23,237 nt of DNA, taken from IMG/VR virus record IMGVR_UViG_3300017744_000167, positions 1-23,237 of that record; one strand, written 5' to 3'. The stretch is from a virus. Shown here in pieces: positions 319-23,236 of this stretch; the stretch's first letter is position 1, and each line of letters opens with the position of its first letter. The position numbers and the translations under genes are program-made. Under the pieces are notes generated by a model. It searched no databases. It was not told where the DNA came from and saw only the letters and a list, made by a program, of their open reading frames with translations.

Positions 319-566
319 GGGAAAAAGTAGAGGAGTCGTTGTATTCAAAGATGCAACCAGTGTGGATGCATAGCGAGGACAAGAGATTGTCTGCACATAT
401 AGAACACGGTGCTCGTTTTTTTGGGTTGTATCTTGATCATCCAAAGAGGAAACCATTTAAGGTGGCTCTTTACTGTGATGGTCAGCAAAGTTGTGAGTTT
501 TATTGCGAGAGTATCGCACAGGCACACGATTATATGCGTAGTTACGTTGAGGAGAAGGAGTTATGA
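315..566 (+). CDS. hypothetical protein (83 aa)
   Basis: The start ATG 315 follows AAGGAG (304-309) at good spacing, and the stop overlaps the ATG of the next gene at 563. The protein is soluble and mixed in charge. Its middle alternates like beta strands (around residues 33-55, FGLYLDHPKRKPFKVALYCD) and is followed by a short helix near the C-terminus. I recognise no family. Strong ribosome binding and overlaps on both sides support a real gene in the early block. Confidence 0.7.
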   Translation: MREKVEESLYSKMQPVWMHSEDKRLSAHIEHGARFFGLYLDHPKRKPFKVALYCDGQQSCEFYCESIAQAHDYMRSYVEEKEL

Positions 567-1177
567 GTAAACTAACTGACGCAAGAGATGCAGTGGGTGG
601 TTTTTCTAATCCAAGTAAGATGCCATGCAAAGCATACTCAATACCAGCGGAGGAGTGTCACACCGGATCTGTACTGAGGGAAGTGGTGGGTTCTACATGT
701 GAGGACTGCTATGCCTGCAAGGGTATGTATGTTTTTCCTAATGTTCAGAAGGCTTTACGCCGTAGGTTTGATGCTCTTTCTCATCCTGATTGGGTGGACA
801 ACATGGTGGTAGGTATCAACAAAGCAGAGTACTTTAGGTGGCATGACTCAGGTGACATCCAAGGTGTCGAGCACTTAGCTAACATCGTGGAGGTAGCACG
901 GCGTACACCTGAGACTAAGCACTGGTTGCCTACTCGTGAGGCTAAGTACGTAGCGCAGTACAGTGGTGACGTACCGGACAACCTCATCGTGCGTGTGTCT
1001 GCTGCAATGATTGATGGTACACCACCAAAGAGGTTTGAGTTGACATCGACAGTGCACAAAGATAGAATCCCTACTGACTCGTTCGTATGCCCCGCACCTA
1101 AGCAGGACAACAAGTGTGGTGAGTGTCGAGCGTGTTGGGATAAAGCAGTACCAAATGTAAGTTACACACATCATTAG
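563..1177 (+). CDS. GP88-family (Gene product 88) cysteine-rich phage protein
   Basis: A 204-residue protein with the hallmarks of the phage 'Gene product 88' domain family: CEDCYACKG (C46, C49, C52), the block FRWHDSGDI (91-99), KHWLPTRE (119-126) and a C-terminal cluster C176, C185, C188, C191. The spaced cysteines around barrel-like strands suggest a metal or iron-sulphur site, reminiscent of radical-SAM-related phage proteins (Gp37/Gp68 type), but no chemistry is established. The start is ATG 563 behind AAGGAG (554-559), overlapping the previous stop. Its stop lies inside the strong ribosome binding site of the next gene. Family assignment is from recalled motifs. Confidence 0.82.
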   Translation: MSKLTDARDAVGGFSNPSKMPCKAYSIPAEECHTGSVLREVVGSTCEDCYACKGMYVFPNVQKALRRRFDALSHPDWVDNMVVGINKAEYFRWHDSGDIQGVEHLANIVEVARRTPETKHWLPTREAKYVAQYSGDVPDNLIVRVSAAMIDGTPPKRFELTSTVHKDRIPTDSFVCPAPKQDNKCGECRACWDKAVPNVSYTHH

Positions 1178-2014: not shown

Positions 2015-2209
2015 GTGAGAGATGGTATGACTTACAAGGAGATAGGCGAAGTTCTTGGTATATCAGGTGAGAGAGTTCGCATGATAGAGGCACAGGCGTT
2101 GAGAAAACTACGTCGTTCAGGTAGGTTGAGGGATTTCCTTTGCCTACTTGAAACACCTGTCGAGATAAATTATGGTGAAAAACATAGGAGAATTAAACGT
2201 GAAAGGTGA
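2015..2209 (+). CDS. mini protein with sigma-70 region 4.2 helix-turn-helix
   Basis: Residues 5-34 ([20 protein letters not shown] and onward, ending ALRKLRRSG) match the region 4.2 helix-turn-helix of bacterial sigma-70 factors, which contacts the -35 element and the polymerase beta flap. The remaining ~30 residues are basic. Nothing resembling sigma regions 2 or 3 is present, so this is not a full sigma factor; it might bind DNA or host polymerase. The start is uncertain: GTG 2015, one base after the previous stop, is annotated. ATG 2027, with GAGAG upstream, would begin exactly at the HTH. It overlaps the next gene. Confidence 0.72.
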
Positions 2210-16786: not shown

Positions 16787-18495
16787 TAGTCATCTCCAAA
16801 TATACCGCCTAACACATTACCAAACAAAGAGCCTATACCACCGTCTTCTGTTGCCATAGGACTAAACAAACCACTTAAAACATTTGATCCTATACCGCCC
16901 AAGAGGTTAGCAGCGGCTTGTTCTGCAACCAACATAGCCTCAAGACCTGCCATAGAAGTTTCACCAAACTGACCAGCACCAAACAACTGACCGCGCTGTT
17001 GCAACTGCGGGAAAAGCTGTGATGCTTGTTGTGCAGCCAGAAGTTGATTCTGCGGCATGTACGATCCTGTGAGTGCGCCCAAGGCAAGCTGTTGTTGTGC
17101 TTGTTGTGCGGCAAGATCCTGCATAGACAACTGACTACCAAGTCCAGCAAACTGTGCACCAAGACCCGCCTGTTGTGCTTGTAGTCCACCAGCAAGCTGT
17201 GCCATCTGACCCGCTTGTCCAGCCGCTGTAGCTGCTCTGCCTAGACCCTCAGACTGCAACTGAGATTCAATCTGCTGTGCGCTGAGTCCAAGCTGTGATA
17301 GCTGTGCAGACCGCTGTTGTGCTGCTGATTGAAGTTGGCTAGATAGTCCTGCCTGTTGACCAAACAAACCACCAAACGTCTGAGCCTCACTAACGGCCTG
17401 CTGACGCTCTGACTGTGCTTGTTGAATAGCAGCCAGTGAAGCTCTGTTCTGTGCTTCTTCTTGTGCTTGAGCTAAAGCAAACTGTTCAGGAGCACCACCA
17501 AACATGGCTGTACGTACACCTAAACGTCCTTGTTGAGCCATGCGCTCTTCCAACTGTAAACGCTGTCGCTCTTCTTCAGGACGCTGTGTGGCCCTAATAC
17601 GCTCAAATACGTCAGCCTCTCGTCCTGCTGTGTCTTGCAAAGCTCTACCTGCAGTTTGACTTGCAAGTTGAGTGTACTGCTGTCTTAAAGCTTCTACATC
17701 AGAAGGAGCCTGAGTATCTAAACCAGCCATACCTAAGTCAAGAGCTTGTTGTCCAAACTGACCTATAGCTGGGTTAGGCTGTTGCCCTAACATACCACCT
17801 ACTTGTCCTGCAAACTGCCCACGAAGAAGATTAAGGTCTGCCGGTTGTGTTCCAGCAGCGCCCATAAACTGACCACCTAAATTAAATGCTTGTTGTGCTG
17901 CTTGTTGTCTTTGTGCTGCACCATACGGCCCTTGAAATAAAGCATTTTCTGCTTGAGATTGCAGCATGTTTTGTATAAATTGTTCTTGGTCAGAAAGGCC
18001 CATAGTAACGCCTTGGCCTACAATTTGTCCTGTTTCTGGATCAATAGTAGGTGTTGCACCAAACTGACCACCAGTTGCTGTAGTAACTGTAAACGGCTGG
18101 AACTGAGACATGTCTACTGCTTGTTGAGCTAATTGGTTAGCTCCGGGTATAGTTACAATCTTACCTGTTACTGGGTCTGTTACTTGAGTTCCTATTACAG
18201 CTTGCTGGCCGATCTGTTGAAGTCTGTCCATACCAGAAGCAACAGCGGCACCACCAGCACCAACCCCAGCGCCAAGACCTAAAAGACCAAAAAGACCGCT
18301 AAGAAAGTCACCACTACCGTCGTCTTCTGTTCCTCCTGTTGAAGGAGATCCGGCGTTTCCTTTTGCATAAATGCCTCCTCCAGCGGGTAAACTAGCCGAC
18401 ATCATTGGGTTAATAGTTTCTATAGAATTATAAGTAGCAAAATTAGGATCCATTAATCCTGTATTTAAATCAGTTCCGGGGGCTGCTAAACGCAT
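16786..18495 (-). CDS. putative internal virion protein, Gln/Ala/Gly-rich, gp14-like by position
   Basis: A 569-residue protein unusually rich in Gln, Ala, Gly and Leu, with almost no Lys or Cys. Residues 64-88 (from DFLSGLFGLLGLGAGVG) are hydrophobic and glycine-rich, as is the C-terminus (about 530-569), whereas the middle is long Q/A-rich coiled-coil-like helix. Two hydrophobic ends around a helical body suggest a membrane-inserting ejection protein, which agrees with its place after the nozzle, where gp14 lies in T7. No sequence match is claimed. GGAGGA precedes the ATG, which shares one base with the upstream stop (TAATG). Confidence 0.66.
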   Translation of the reverse strand: MRLAAPGTDLNTGLMDPNFATYNSIETINPMMSASLPAGGGIYAKGNAGSPSTGGTEDDGSGDFLSGLFGLLGLGAGVGAGGAAVASGMDRLQQIGQQAVIGTQVTDPVTGKIVTIPGANQLAQQAVDMSQFQPFTVTTATGGQFGATPTIDPETGQIVGQGVTMGLSDQEQFIQNMLQSQAENALFQGPYGAAQRQQAAQQAFNLGGQFMGAAGTQPADLNLLRGQFAGQVGGMLGQQPNPAIGQFGQQALDLGMAGLDTQAPSDVEALRQQYTQLASQTAGRALQDTAGREADVFERIRATQRPEEERQRLQLEERMAQQGRLGVRTAMFGGAPEQFALAQAQEEAQNRASLAAIQQAQSERQQAVSEAQTFGGLFGQQAGLSSQLQSAAQQRSAQLSQLGLSAQQIESQLQSEGLGRAATAAGQAGQMAQLAGGLQAQQAGLGAQFAGLGSQLSMQDLAAQQAQQQLALGALTGSYMPQNQLLAAQQASQLFPQLQQRGQLFGAGQFGETSMAGLEAMLVAEQAAANLLGGIGSNVLSGLFSPMATEDGGIGSLFGNVLGGIFGDD

Positions 18496-18728
18496 TAGTA
18501 AGTTCCTCCGTCAATTGTGCCTGTAGACAAAGTACCCGTAAGTGTCAACGTAGGAATTGTTACAGTGCCAGTAAATGTAGGAGAAGCTAAGTCAGCTTTA
18601 GTTGCAACCGCAGTTACAATAGCGTCAAACTCTGTATTAAACTCGCTACCACGAATAACTTTATTACTATCTCCAGAACTCAAACTGTCTTTAGCAGCAA
18701 AGTTAGTTGTCTTTGTATAATTGCTCAT
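18495..18728 (-). CDS. short tail-fibre-like protein (77 aa)
   Basis: The N-terminal block (NFAAKDSLSSGDSNKVIRGS, then EFNTEFDAIVTAVATKADLA) is the type of sequence that opens many podovirus tail fibre proteins, and SPTFTGTVTIPTLTLTGTLS is the repeating beta pattern of fibre shafts. The protein then ends at residue 77 after TIDGGTY with no knob or receptor-binding part. It may be a cut-down fibre, a small connector, or a short trimeric spike. It starts in an ATGA overlap with the nozzle gene. Confidence 0.75.
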   Translation of the reverse strand: MSNYTKTTNFAAKDSLSSGDSNKVIRGSEFNTEFDAIVTAVATKADLASPTFTGTVTIPTLTLTGTLSTGTIDGGTY

Positions 18729-20259: not shown

Positions 20260-20907
20260 CTACGGAATGTACCAGATGGTTTCTTCAGGGTGCTTCTGTG
20301 CGTCCATAGCAACCGCGTCAGACAAAAACTTATCAGCAATACCAAAGTACTCAGGTGCTGATGTACCGCCTGTCTCACCACGCTCACGAGCTAACATAGC
20401 TATTGCTAGGTGTATCACAGGTTGACTAGGAATAACTAACTTATCAGTATCAGCACTAAGTTCAGCGTTCCTAAGCGTACAATTAAACCGTAAGTCATAA
20501 ACGGCGTCTGGCTTTGGGTATACGTCTACCTGTGTGTCACCATCAGAATCTACACCGTTATACGTGTAGTACTCAGGAGTGCCTGATGCTGGTGTTCCTA
20601 TTAAGTACTTGTCGTCAAACCAGCGTTGAGATCGGTATTCCATAGTTAAGTTTGAAGTGTCGTTAATTACGTTTAGTACTTTAATTTTATTTTGCGAACC
20701 TGTAAGAACATAGTTAAACGTACCAGAAGAAGTTGTTACAGTTAGTGTTGTTCTAAGAGCCGACCAATCCCAAGCGTCTTCTACTAGTTTTTTAGCGTCG
20801 TTAATAAAGTCACCCGCCAGCTTGCTATAAGTACTATCAGCAACACTAGATACTTCGTCTTCACGTAAACGCCTTAACACGTTGTTGACCAAATTTAAAT
20901 ATGTCAT
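20260..20907 (-). CDS. head-tail adaptor (T7 gp11 / P22 gp4-like)
   Basis: A 215-residue protein with helix-rich ends and a beta-strand centre: TYLNLVNNVLRRLRE at the N-terminus, WDWSAL (46-51), then strands such as TQVDVYPKPDAVYDLRF, and a helix PSQPVIHLAIAMLARERGE (160-178). This pattern is typical of podovirus adaptors that form a 12-subunit ring under the portal. It lies directly before the nozzle gene, as gp11 precedes gp12. Its ATG overlaps the upstream gene's stop by four bases. Confidence 0.82.
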   Translation of the reverse strand: MTYLNLVNNVLRRLREDEVSSVADSTYSKLAGDFINDAKKLVEDAWDWSALRTTLTVTTSSGTFNYVLTGSQNKIKVLNVINDTSNLTMEYRSQRWFDDKYLIGTPASGTPEYYTYNGVDSDGDTQVDVYPKPDAVYDLRFNCTLRNAELSADTDKLVIPSQPVIHLAIAMLARERGETGGTSAPEYFGIADKFLSDAVAMDAQKHPEETIWYIP

Positions 20908-23009
20908 GATAAAAACCTTGAAGAAAATTCGGGAAATAAATTTTTAACAATACTTTGCTCAAGTTTTTGAGTATTTTGCGTGGGCTGTGCTCCTGTTAAC
21001 ATGCCAAGAGAAGAAGCTGGTAAAACGTCTGGCACAGGTTGCTTTGCATACGAAATACCACGAACAACAGGATTAAAAGTACCGCCGCTGCTTCCGCCGC
21101 CACCACTACTAGCGGGTGTGGAAGTAGTAGTAGTAGGAGGTGTTGTTGTTGTTACAGGTATTTCTTGTTTAACACAGTTGTCCATGTTTTCATCTAGGAC
21201 GTATCCGGGCAAACAATCGCCACAAGACCCGTCTTCGTTTGTGCTTCTGTTTAAAGAGGCACATTTATTACTCTGTACACTACCTCCACCACACTGTTGA
21301 TCCCACGCTTTTTGTTGGTTTACCAAGTCAAATGTTAATGCTCCTGTTGGTCTAGGATCTACACTACAATCAAAGTTAAAAACGTTTGGGTTTGGTGTTG
21401 TTGTAATTAGGTCTTTAGTACAGTCTCCTCCTTCGTGCGCGCTTGGTGCAGACCCGTCAGGACATTCTTTACAGTCACTTTCTAATGTAGCACCGTTATT
21501 ACAGGGTGTAGAAGGCTGTTCTCCACAAACACCACTTTCTGGTTTTACAGACCCATCGGGACAATGTGTAGCGCCACACGCTTCTTCCCAATCAGAATGT
21601 GCTGCGTTATCTGCAGGATTAAAACTAGGGGTGGATGCAGGCTGTGGTTGAGTACAGTCTATAGTCGGAGGAGGATTAACAACCTCTACACATTCTCCAG
21701 ATATGTCATCAGGTTCATAGTTTTGAAGTTTACAATCCCCACACGAATCAGTAACCTCGTCATACTCTCTGCCTTTTTGTTTACAGTCTTCTTCAACTGT
21801 GTTTACTACTGGCCCTGCATCTTCACACGACTTACTTGCTTCTATGTACTCAAAACCTTCTGGACAAACACAGTTTCCGTCTGCATCTGTTTGTGCTCCT
21901 GCATTAACACAATCAGGATTAGGGTTGTCTGGGCCGTACACAGGCGTAACAGGAGGAACACCAATAGTGCCGTCATCGTCTACATCTGTGCCATAGATGT
22001 CTTCCAGACCGCCCAAAATTTCTTTACCAAGAATACCGGCTCCAATAACACCCCAAATCCAAGGAGGCATACTGAGGGGGTCTTCTCCAAAAATACCTTT
22101 TAACCACTCGTAAACTTCTTTTACTGCATCTTCAGGGTTTGAAACAGCGCCTACAACACCTTCATAAACTTCTGTTACTTTTTCTTCTATTGTATTTCCT
22201 AGATCACCAGCAGCATCGCCTATTCCACTTAAAATTTGTCCTGTACACTCAGAAACTGATGCTTCTCCTTCAAAGCAACCTTCGTCAACACCTTCAAAAA
22301 CTTTTCCAAAAGTATTATCCCAAACATCTGCTATTGACGGTAGTTTAAAAATAGCAGGAATAGGAATCCAATCAGGTATTGGTAAATTAAAAACACCTTT
22401 AATTAAAACATCAATATTTTCAAGAATACCTCTAAAAGTCCCATCACTTTCTAACACACCGTAAACATCTAATATAGCAGTGGCGTCTGCTCCTGATTTT
22501 TCCATCATGTCTTTGAAAACATCTTCTGGTGTTGCCATAACTCCGCTGGGACCGGTCATGGACATCACAACAGAATTATTCTGTATTCCTGCGCTTTCGT
22601 ACCTGTTGACAACATCTAAGAAGTCTTCGTCTGTTTCTACGTTTTCTATGTCATTCAAAAAACTATCGTACTGCCACTGATTAAACTCTGTTGACTCAAC
22701 TTCGTTATTGTCATCGTACCCGTAAACAGTATGCGGATTACCATCAGCATCAACAGCGTAGACTTCGTTTACTCCGTCACCGTCTAAATCACTAGAGTTG
22801 TAATCAACAGCACCTTCTGGAAGTGTACCATAAACAGCTTGGAGGTAGGCTTTTAGTGTTTTGAATTCTCTTAGGGCTGTTCCAGAGGGGCCAGTGGTAG
22901 AAATACCTCCAGAACTAAAAGGGTAAAAGCCGGGAGCAGGGTCACCGTTATCGGGTTTTACAGTAGGAAGGTCAAAGTCTTGCATTTCTTCATGTGTAGG
23001 ACCAGCCAT
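20904..23009 (-). CDS. large cysteine-rich, EGF-like secreted-type protein of unknown virion role
   Basis: A 701-residue acidic protein. DLDGDGVNEVY (74-84) and DVDDDGTIG (342-350) look like calcium-binding loops. Residues 315-336 (PPWIWGVIGAGILG...) are hydrophobic and could cross or touch a membrane. Residues 361-620 hold 22 cysteines in repeated CxxC-x12/13-C triads with CPxG turns, like EGF or growth-factor-receptor modules. A Thr/Pro-rich linker (617-634), a Gly/Ser stretch and a basic tail end it. No signal peptide is visible. Lying between holin and adaptor in the late operon, it could be a fibre, decoration or adhesion protein. Function is unknown to me. Confidence 0.7.
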   Translation of the reverse strand: MAGPTHEEMQDFDLPTVKPDNGDPAPGFYPFSSGGISTTGPSGTALREFKTLKAYLQAVYGTLPEGAVDYNSSDLDGDGVNEVYAVDADGNPHTVYGYDDNNEVESTEFNQWQYDSFLNDIENVETDEDFLDVVNRYESAGIQNNSVVMSMTGPSGVMATPEDVFKDMMEKSGADATAILDVYGVLESDGTFRGILENIDVLIKGVFNLPIPDWIPIPAIFKLPSIADVWDNTFGKVFEGVDEGCFEGEASVSECTGQILSGIGDAAGDLGNTIEEKVTEVYEGVVGAVSNPEDAVKEVYEWLKGIFGEDPLSMPPWIWGVIGAGILGKEILGGLEDIYGTDVDDDGTIGVPPVTPVYGPDNPNPDCVNAGAQTDADGNCVCPEGFEYIEASKSCEDAGPVVNTVEEDCKQKGREYDEVTDSCGDCKLQNYEPDDISGECVEVVNPPPTIDCTQPQPASTPSFNPADNAAHSDWEEACGATHCPDGSVKPESGVCGEQPSTPCNNGATLESDCKECPDGSAPSAHEGGDCTKDLITTTPNPNVFNFDCSVDPRPTGALTFDLVNQQKAWDQQCGGGSVQSNKCASLNRSTNEDGSCGDCLPGYVLDENMDNCVKQEIPVTTTTPPTTTTSTPASSGGGGSSGGTFNPVVRGISYAKQPVPDVLPASSLGMLTGAQPTQNTQKLEQSIVKNLFPEFSSRFLS

Positions 23010-23011
23010 TG

Positions 23012-23236
23012 TTACTTACCACCCTTTAGCTGCATCAGCTTGTCAGCACCACGTATGCCAAAGCTGGCTGTGACTGCAACGTACAAAAGATATTGATACC
23101 ACTCAGGTAGCTTCCCTAGTTCTGCAAAGGCCACACCTACGCGACCAATAATATCAAGATCGTTCATACCTACGCCCCACATAATAGCTATCACAGGCGC
23201 ACTCAGGACTACTGTGAACCACTCGTCTTTCCACGA
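23012..23236 (-). CDS. holin, GTA-type 3TM family (5' end cut by the window edge)
   Basis: The frame stays open to the edge. The visible part begins SWKDEWFTVVLSAPVIAIMW and ends in ASFGIRGADKLMQLKGGK. Two hydrophobic segments are seen, WFTVVLSAPVIAIMWGVG and WYQYLLYVAVTASFGIRG, separated by an amphipathic stretch with LPEWYQY. The pattern matches the GTA_holin_3TM family of small membrane proteins that make holes in the inner membrane at lysis. An internal GTG at 23194 would cut the first membrane segment and is not the true start. It is followed two bases later by the cysteine-rich protein gene. No endolysin is seen nearby in the window. Confidence 0.75.
   Translation of the reverse strand, partial: SWKDEWFTVVLSAPVIAIMWGVGMNDLDIIGRVGVAFAELGKLPEWYQYLLYVAVTASFGIRGADKLMQLKGGK

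Follow-up and report, generated by a model that had tools for sequence, protein, structure and literature searches.

The cysteine-rich gene between a holin-like gene and the tail adaptor gene of an uncultured, marine, podovirus-like phage encodes a modular protein whose cysteines are conserved and even in number, and whose relatives at the same genomic position are mosaic and hypervariable. We refer to this position as the slot and to the protein (P0001) as the slot protein. We judge the chances to be about even that this late, modular and probably oxidised protein is attached to the virion and may contact a receptor, with host recognition as its most likely role.

Genomic setting of the slot gene

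The window, by which we mean the whole stretch of DNA analysed (G000), is a virus record of 23,237 bases with 42.9% G+C. Its plus strand carries replication genes, namely primase-helicase, DNA polymerase A, 5'-3' exonuclease and class II ribonucleotide reductase, and its minus strand carries the late genes. Judged by DNA polymerase, the closest isolates belong to the HTVC103P-type pelagiphages (47% identity), which are also distantly related by their nozzle protein; no relative of the slot protein was found in them, however, and only small genes lie between their capsid gene and tail genes. A tblastn search with the tail adaptor of the window matched none of 50,697 phage records, and the phage group is therefore uncultured as far as the collections searched go. 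P0001 and the slot protein of relative L072 likewise had no relative in these 50,697 records (tblastn), and the adaptor and the L072 protein had no match in 84,980 genomes, which gave no host lead. The early genes include a GP88-family protein with CxxC motifs (563-1177, plus strand; PF17338, E 8.5e-31). A 64-aa open reading frame at 2015-2209 (plus strand) consists of little beyond sigma-70 region 4 (PF04545, E 9.5e-13); this stand-alone mini sigma domain is possibly a transcription regulator.

The slot gene, its parts and its neighbours are as follows.

23012-23236, minus strand: small holin-like membrane protein, truncated at the end of the window (phrog_2524, function unknown, E 8.4e-19)
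20904-23009, minus strand: slot protein P0001, 701 aa, cysteine-rich (open reading frame and translation; homologues in the same slot of IMG/VR contigs)
22560-22907, minus strand: N-terminal domain, residues 35-150, with the calcium-type loop DLDGDGVNE at 74-82 (76-79% identity to L001-L003)
21945-22559, minus strand: helical, amphipathic/hydrophobic middle cassette (residues 151-355) containing the C245/C255 pair (identity to L002 and L001)
21822-21914, minus strand: cysteine module 1 (C367, C380, C382, C395), EGF C-terminal-type spacing CVCPEGF...C (cEGF below cut-off)
21687-21788, minus strand: cysteine module 2 (C409, C423, C426, C440; 8 matches in 6 proteins)
21519-21659, minus strand: cysteine module 3 (C452, C478, C483, C495; 145 matches in 66 proteins)
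21417-21506, minus strand: cysteine module 4 (C503, C513, C516, C530; 145 matches in 69 proteins)
21282-21371, minus strand: two-cysteine unit 5 (C548, C573; 47 matches in 40 proteins)
21168-21266, minus strand: cysteine module 6 (C583, C596, C599, C612), two beta hairpins (184 matches in 75 proteins)
21075-21152, minus strand: Thr/Ser/Gly-rich linker, residues 620-645 (from the sequence)
20907-20975, minus strand: C-terminal hydrophobic tail, residues 679-701, ...SIVKNLFPEFSSRFLS (recurrent tails)
20260-20907, minus strand: tail adaptor (PF24175 SU10_adaptor, E 4.7e-15), its start overlapping the slot-gene stop by 4 nt

The preliminary description reported the gene without a strand; the open reading frame is real and lies on the minus strand, the plus strand across it being full of stops. 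Of the neighbours it named, the tail adaptor is borne out by its domain, but the supposed holin is only holin-like, as its family has no known function. The slot gene starts 2 nt after this small gene, and the small gene that flanks the slot in relatives has a median identity of 96% to the copy in the window.

Because the holin-like gene lies directly upstream in 62 of the 81 slots tested, and amphipathic and hydrophobic segments precede the cysteine beads, the product might be a non-virion, late, membrane-associated protein that displays its beads in the periplasm or on the infected cell and serves lysis or the exclusion of other phages. We consider this unlikely, since no signal peptide is seen at the N-terminus, the Cys-rich members have no clear transmembrane helix (top hydropathy means of about 0.8-1.7), and the overlap with the adaptor start and the recurrent tail peptide fit a structural role better.

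Downstream of the nozzle gene, the late operon encodes three large proteins of 569, 434 and 1334 aa. These already fill the usual places of internal or ejection proteins, and ejection proteins are not usually as variable as the slot protein. Both points argue against the quite unlikely alternative that the slot protein is ejected together with the DNA into the host envelope and extends across the periplasm, where its beads would oxidise, even though the membrane-friendly middle cassette, the Ala/Gly-rich hydrophobic stretches in relatives L095, L097 and L075, and the wide length range of slot proteins would suit it.

A domain search in relative L003 found a Peptidase_S74 tail fibre encoded upstream of the slot, and a fibre gene is also upstream in several other relatives with longer upstream sequence. 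Receptor binding may thus be the task of that fibre, and the slot protein is not necessarily the main protein with this function. The S74-type tail fibres of this phage group resemble the slot gene in being late genes of the structural operon with variable parts; they differ in that the fibre has a gene of its own, located upstream of the holin-like one, and the slot protein has no S74 domain. After the nozzle gene of the window (18495-18728, minus strand) lies a 77-aa open reading frame ending in GTIDGGTY, which matches the GTINGGTY end of a 366-aa coiled fibre in L003; the two ends are perhaps a shared assembly motif.

Architecture of the slot protein

P0001 contains 24 cysteines, 22 of them in residues 367-612 and the others at C245 and C255. 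They occupy positions 245, 255, 367, 380, 382, 395, 409, 423, 426, 440, 452, 478, 483, 495, 503, 513, 516, 530, 548, 573, 583, 596, 599 and 612. All positions named in the preliminary description are right, as is its count of 22 cysteines within 361-620. The cysteine triads it recognized are, instead, the last three cysteines of five four-cysteine modules, C-x(9-25)-C-x(1-4)-C-x(11-13)-C, which are accompanied by one two-cysteine unit. The 90-residue register that it noted holds from 423 to 513 in P0001; it is not general, because in two of the three nearest relatives residues 356-445 belong to another cassette.

The modules differ in how widely they occur. Modules 1 and 2 are rare among relatives in profile searches, and module 1 was found outside the window only in L001. 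Module 3 has a helix between its first and second cysteine. Unit 5 resembles the first half of module 3, lacking the second cysteine pair, and is matched by the module 3 profile; judged by sequence, the step between the two would again be a change by two cysteines.

Preceding the modules, the middle cassette ends in a calcium-type loop, DVDDDGTIG (342-350). The calcium-like loops described earlier are indeed present, as DxDxDG at 74-79 and 342-347, and a loop of this kind is found in 33 of 48 relatives. A candidate transmembrane helix at 317-335 was rejected, its hydropathy being only 1.25, which is the highest 19-residue Kyte-Doolittle mean of P0001. Following the modules, a Gly-rich linker lies within the last 160 aa of 58 of the 66 slot open reading frames, and the hydrophobic C-terminal tails fall into few types that recur across otherwise unrelated slot proteins.

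Relatives, mosaicism and hypervariability

A search of IMG/VR with P0001 found three close relatives and 30 relatives with an alignment, and a search with the adaptor found 80 loci at 78-90% identity. The open reading frame before the adaptor was taken in all loci, giving 91 complete frames, 66 of them distinct and 48 of these with at least 20 cysteines. Slot proteins of IMG/VR relatives, encoded between the holin-like gene and the SU10-type adaptor, contain from 0 to 84 cysteines.

In seven loci (L036, L037, L038, L082, L087, L089 and L098) an optional, Cys-free open reading frame of 222-274 aa lies directly before the adaptor. These frames were rejected as slot proteins on the evidence of L038, L082 and L089, in which upstream sequence is available and the frame proves to be an extra gene following that of the slot protein; all of them stay in the count of 66. 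In L038, the frame before the Cys-free gene is a 5'-cut protein with 57 cysteines. The Cys-free gene product ends in a sequence (such as NSLFGDFL) that is similar to the hydrophobic slot-protein tails.

Sequence comparison shows P0001 to be a composite of exchanged cassettes. Its residues 151-355 are 98-100% identical to L002 versus 45-57% to L001, and residues 356-445 are 94% identical to L001 versus 34% to L002. Before the first of these switches, residues 105-150 have 95-98% DNA identity among P0001 and L001-L003, a block that would fit cassette exchange by homologous recombination at conserved blocks. A strict whole-protein screen for mosaic slot proteins gave no pairs at its thresholds, and a looser screen gave 22 ordered pairs in 13 proteins. 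The N-terminal domain of L113 (621-2915) resembles DUF4214 (E 0.0011, below cut-off), which indicates that the N-terminal part is swapped too.

Divergence of the slot protein greatly exceeds that of its neighbour. Among 820 pairs of Cys-rich proteins, median identity is 84% for the adaptor versus 25% for the slot protein. The slot median is again 25% in the 247 pairs with adaptors at least 90% identical, and slot proteins are below 40% identity in 85% of these pairs; at the extreme, L049 and L062 share 99% identity in the adaptor and 19% in the slot protein. With conserved neighbours on both sides and tail genes close by, the variable slot gene has the arrangement that marks the hypervariable host-recognition loci of marine phages.

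The N-terminal domain of P0001 is shared with the Cys-poor relatives L022, L026 and L014, the match in L026 covering residues 35-112, and in L022 and L026 it is followed by a low-complexity middle. Simple repeats of the ESKPTDGG and KDGE types, with no cysteine beads, make up the middle in L022 (497-1876), L100 and L014 (5760-7973). Such Cys-free, low-complexity middles imply that the beads are not indispensable to the role of the slot. Since the Cys-poor relatives place repeats between similar N- and C-terminal parts, the protein might even be a passive spacer or shield in which length and bulk count and not binding, but the conserved cysteines, the conservation of some other module residues (Gly, Asn and Asp) and the swapping between genomes are more than a filler needs, and we regard this as improbable.

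Even cysteine numbers and cysteine conservation

The cysteine count is even in all 48 distinct, Cys-rich, complete slot proteins. L012 was excluded from this count because its open reading frame stops 88 nt short of the adaptor and is apparently frameshifted. In an earlier set, all 39 distinct Cys-rich proteins had even cysteine numbers, with other amino acids even in 15-22 of the 39, and the slot open reading frames with 0-6 cysteines are also all even. Among comparison open reading frames of at least 300 aa with at least three cysteines, 26 of 42 are even, the window gene and two slot-like frames being counted among the 42. Cysteine groups more than 30 residues apart are even in 81% of cases, versus 48% in spacing shuffles (maximum 57%). 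Clustering reduces the 48 proteins to 39 groups at 70% identity and to 15 at 50%; treated as independent coin tosses, an all-even outcome would have a chance of about 2e-12 (39 clusters) or 3e-5 (15 clusters), neither of which is exact because modules are shared between proteins.

The totals of the 48 divide 24:24 between 0 and 2 modulo 4. Together with the even counts, this indicates that the conserved unit is the cysteine pair, and thus disulphides and not Cys4 zinc sites; full disulphide pairing would predict the even counts observed. In non-redundant alignments of the module families, the four cysteine columns are among the most conserved, at 94-100% in module 6, 89-100% in module 3 and 80-100% in module 4. 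On these columns and counts, the cysteine pattern exceeds chance. The disulphide-rich modules and the oxidised final state proposed in the preliminary description, whether extracellular, periplasmic or reached after lysis, are supported accordingly: the relatives keep their cysteines.

Predicted structure and resemblance to known folds

AlphaFold2 modelled full-length P0001 with a pLDDT of 46.2, the N-terminal half being mostly below 50, and comparison of this model with PDB and BFVD gave only noise. The cysteine modules were the best-predicted part, and not the disordered one that would have spoken against the preliminary description. Residues 446-620 modelled separately reached a mean pLDDT of 73.5, with about 81-91 in module 3 and two hairpins in module 6; the pTM of 0.31 is what would be expected for linked beads that are not fixed to each other.

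Most of the top 50 Foldseek matches of this module model were EGF domains, all of them weak (best E 0.2), and VIA Z was at most 2.2. EGF-like domains have six cysteines in three disulphides (1-3, 2-4, 5-6). Like the EGF domains of factor IXa/Xa (EGF2) and LRP6, the slot protein would be a tandem array of small, disulphide-stapled beads. The C-terminal EGF hairpin, C-x-C-x2-G-[FY]-x(n)-C, is reproduced exactly in module 1 (C380-V-C382-PEGF...C395); module 6 is similar, with CxxC replacing CxC and weak Foldseek matches to EGF. In contrast to the six cysteines of EGF, however, the slot modules have four and unit 5 has two. P0001 scored 11.9 bits against Pfam cEGF, versus a cut-off of 26.6, and no module 6 member exceeded the cut-off of a Pfam EGF family, cEGF being the best at E 0.045. 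The EGF likeness claimed earlier therefore holds for the look of some modules and not for family membership, as six-cysteine domains are absent. The module 6 profile also matched a TNF-receptor cysteine-rich repeat, in one EDAR chain, over a CGpC-x-pGy core (E 0.015); at 15 residues this match is too short for family membership to be assigned, and TNF-receptor repeats differ from the slot modules in module lengths and cysteine order.

Binding of metal by the CxxC modules in the reducing cytoplasm, in the manner of zinc ribbons and with no disulphides, is very improbable: the four-cysteine modules with CxxC and the weak matches of zinc-ribbon models to single modules are outweighed by the common two-cysteine units and the 24 of 48 totals at 2 modulo 4, which Cys4 sites would not give, by the single CxxC of module 6 with its outer cysteines 13 residues away and not two knuckles, and by the EGF domains as best, if weak, Foldseek matches.

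Whole P0001 had no family above cut-off in Pfam, PHROGs or PDB sequences, and neither the window protein nor any other slot protein that was scanned had a PHROG or Pfam fibre match. None of the PHROG, Pfam, PDB/BFVD and Foldseek comparisons gave a fold or family match pointing to a binding function. As neither the protein nor its modules could be assigned to a curated family, the earlier suggestion of a new protein type is upheld.

Comparison with known phage loci

In marine phages, host-recognition genes are overrepresented in hypervariable 'metaviromic islands' (PMC3909814), and HTVC010P-type pelagiphages have a hypervariable region linked to host recognition (PMC10504331). These loci resemble the slot in that strongly variable proteins are encoded among the structural genes of podovirus-like marine phages. 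Their known proteins are instead of the lectin, C1q, carbohydrate-binding or fibre type, and the available portions of the two reports do not mention cysteine-bead arrays. In the part of the literature covered by our searches, no Cys-rich or EGF-like phage tail protein is described, and we found no description of tailed-phage proteins with tens of disulphide-linked cysteines in tandem beads. The type of locus is thus already known, and the protein architecture appears new.

Proposed role of the slot protein

The late slot gene is coupled to a tail gene and is hypervariable, its product is fit for an oxidising place, and comparable islands are enriched in host-recognition genes; a role in host recognition is therefore the most likely. 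The short hydrophobic C-terminal tail would dock on the tail or connector region, as we infer from the recurrence of tail types across slot proteins, next to a flexible Gly/Thr linker. After the linker would follow a string of disulphide-stapled beads, comprising the five four-cysteine modules and the two-cysteine unit, and beyond these the helical, amphipathic cassette and an exchangeable N-terminal domain, which in this putative orientation faces the host. The cysteines would be reduced when the protein is made, and would all become paired once it has been released or has reached the periplasm. Exchange of whole cassettes would alter length and surface and leave no cysteine unpaired. We put forward, tentatively and with some doubt, the more specific proposal that this combinatorial disulphide-bead protein is a fast-changing host-contact device of uncultured marine podovirus-like phages, its modules being exchanged with every cysteine paired.

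The even cysteine number under cassette exchange is a sequence signature that can be used to find more such proteins, and the slot becomes a candidate for the host-range locus in a phage group without a cultured member in the collections searched. If located in the virion, the slot protein would show clearly that phages can have modular host-contact parts stapled by disulphides. If it does contact the host, it would be a phage counterpart of the Cys-bead adhesion proteins of animals, synthesized in the reducing cytoplasm and then oxidised once released.
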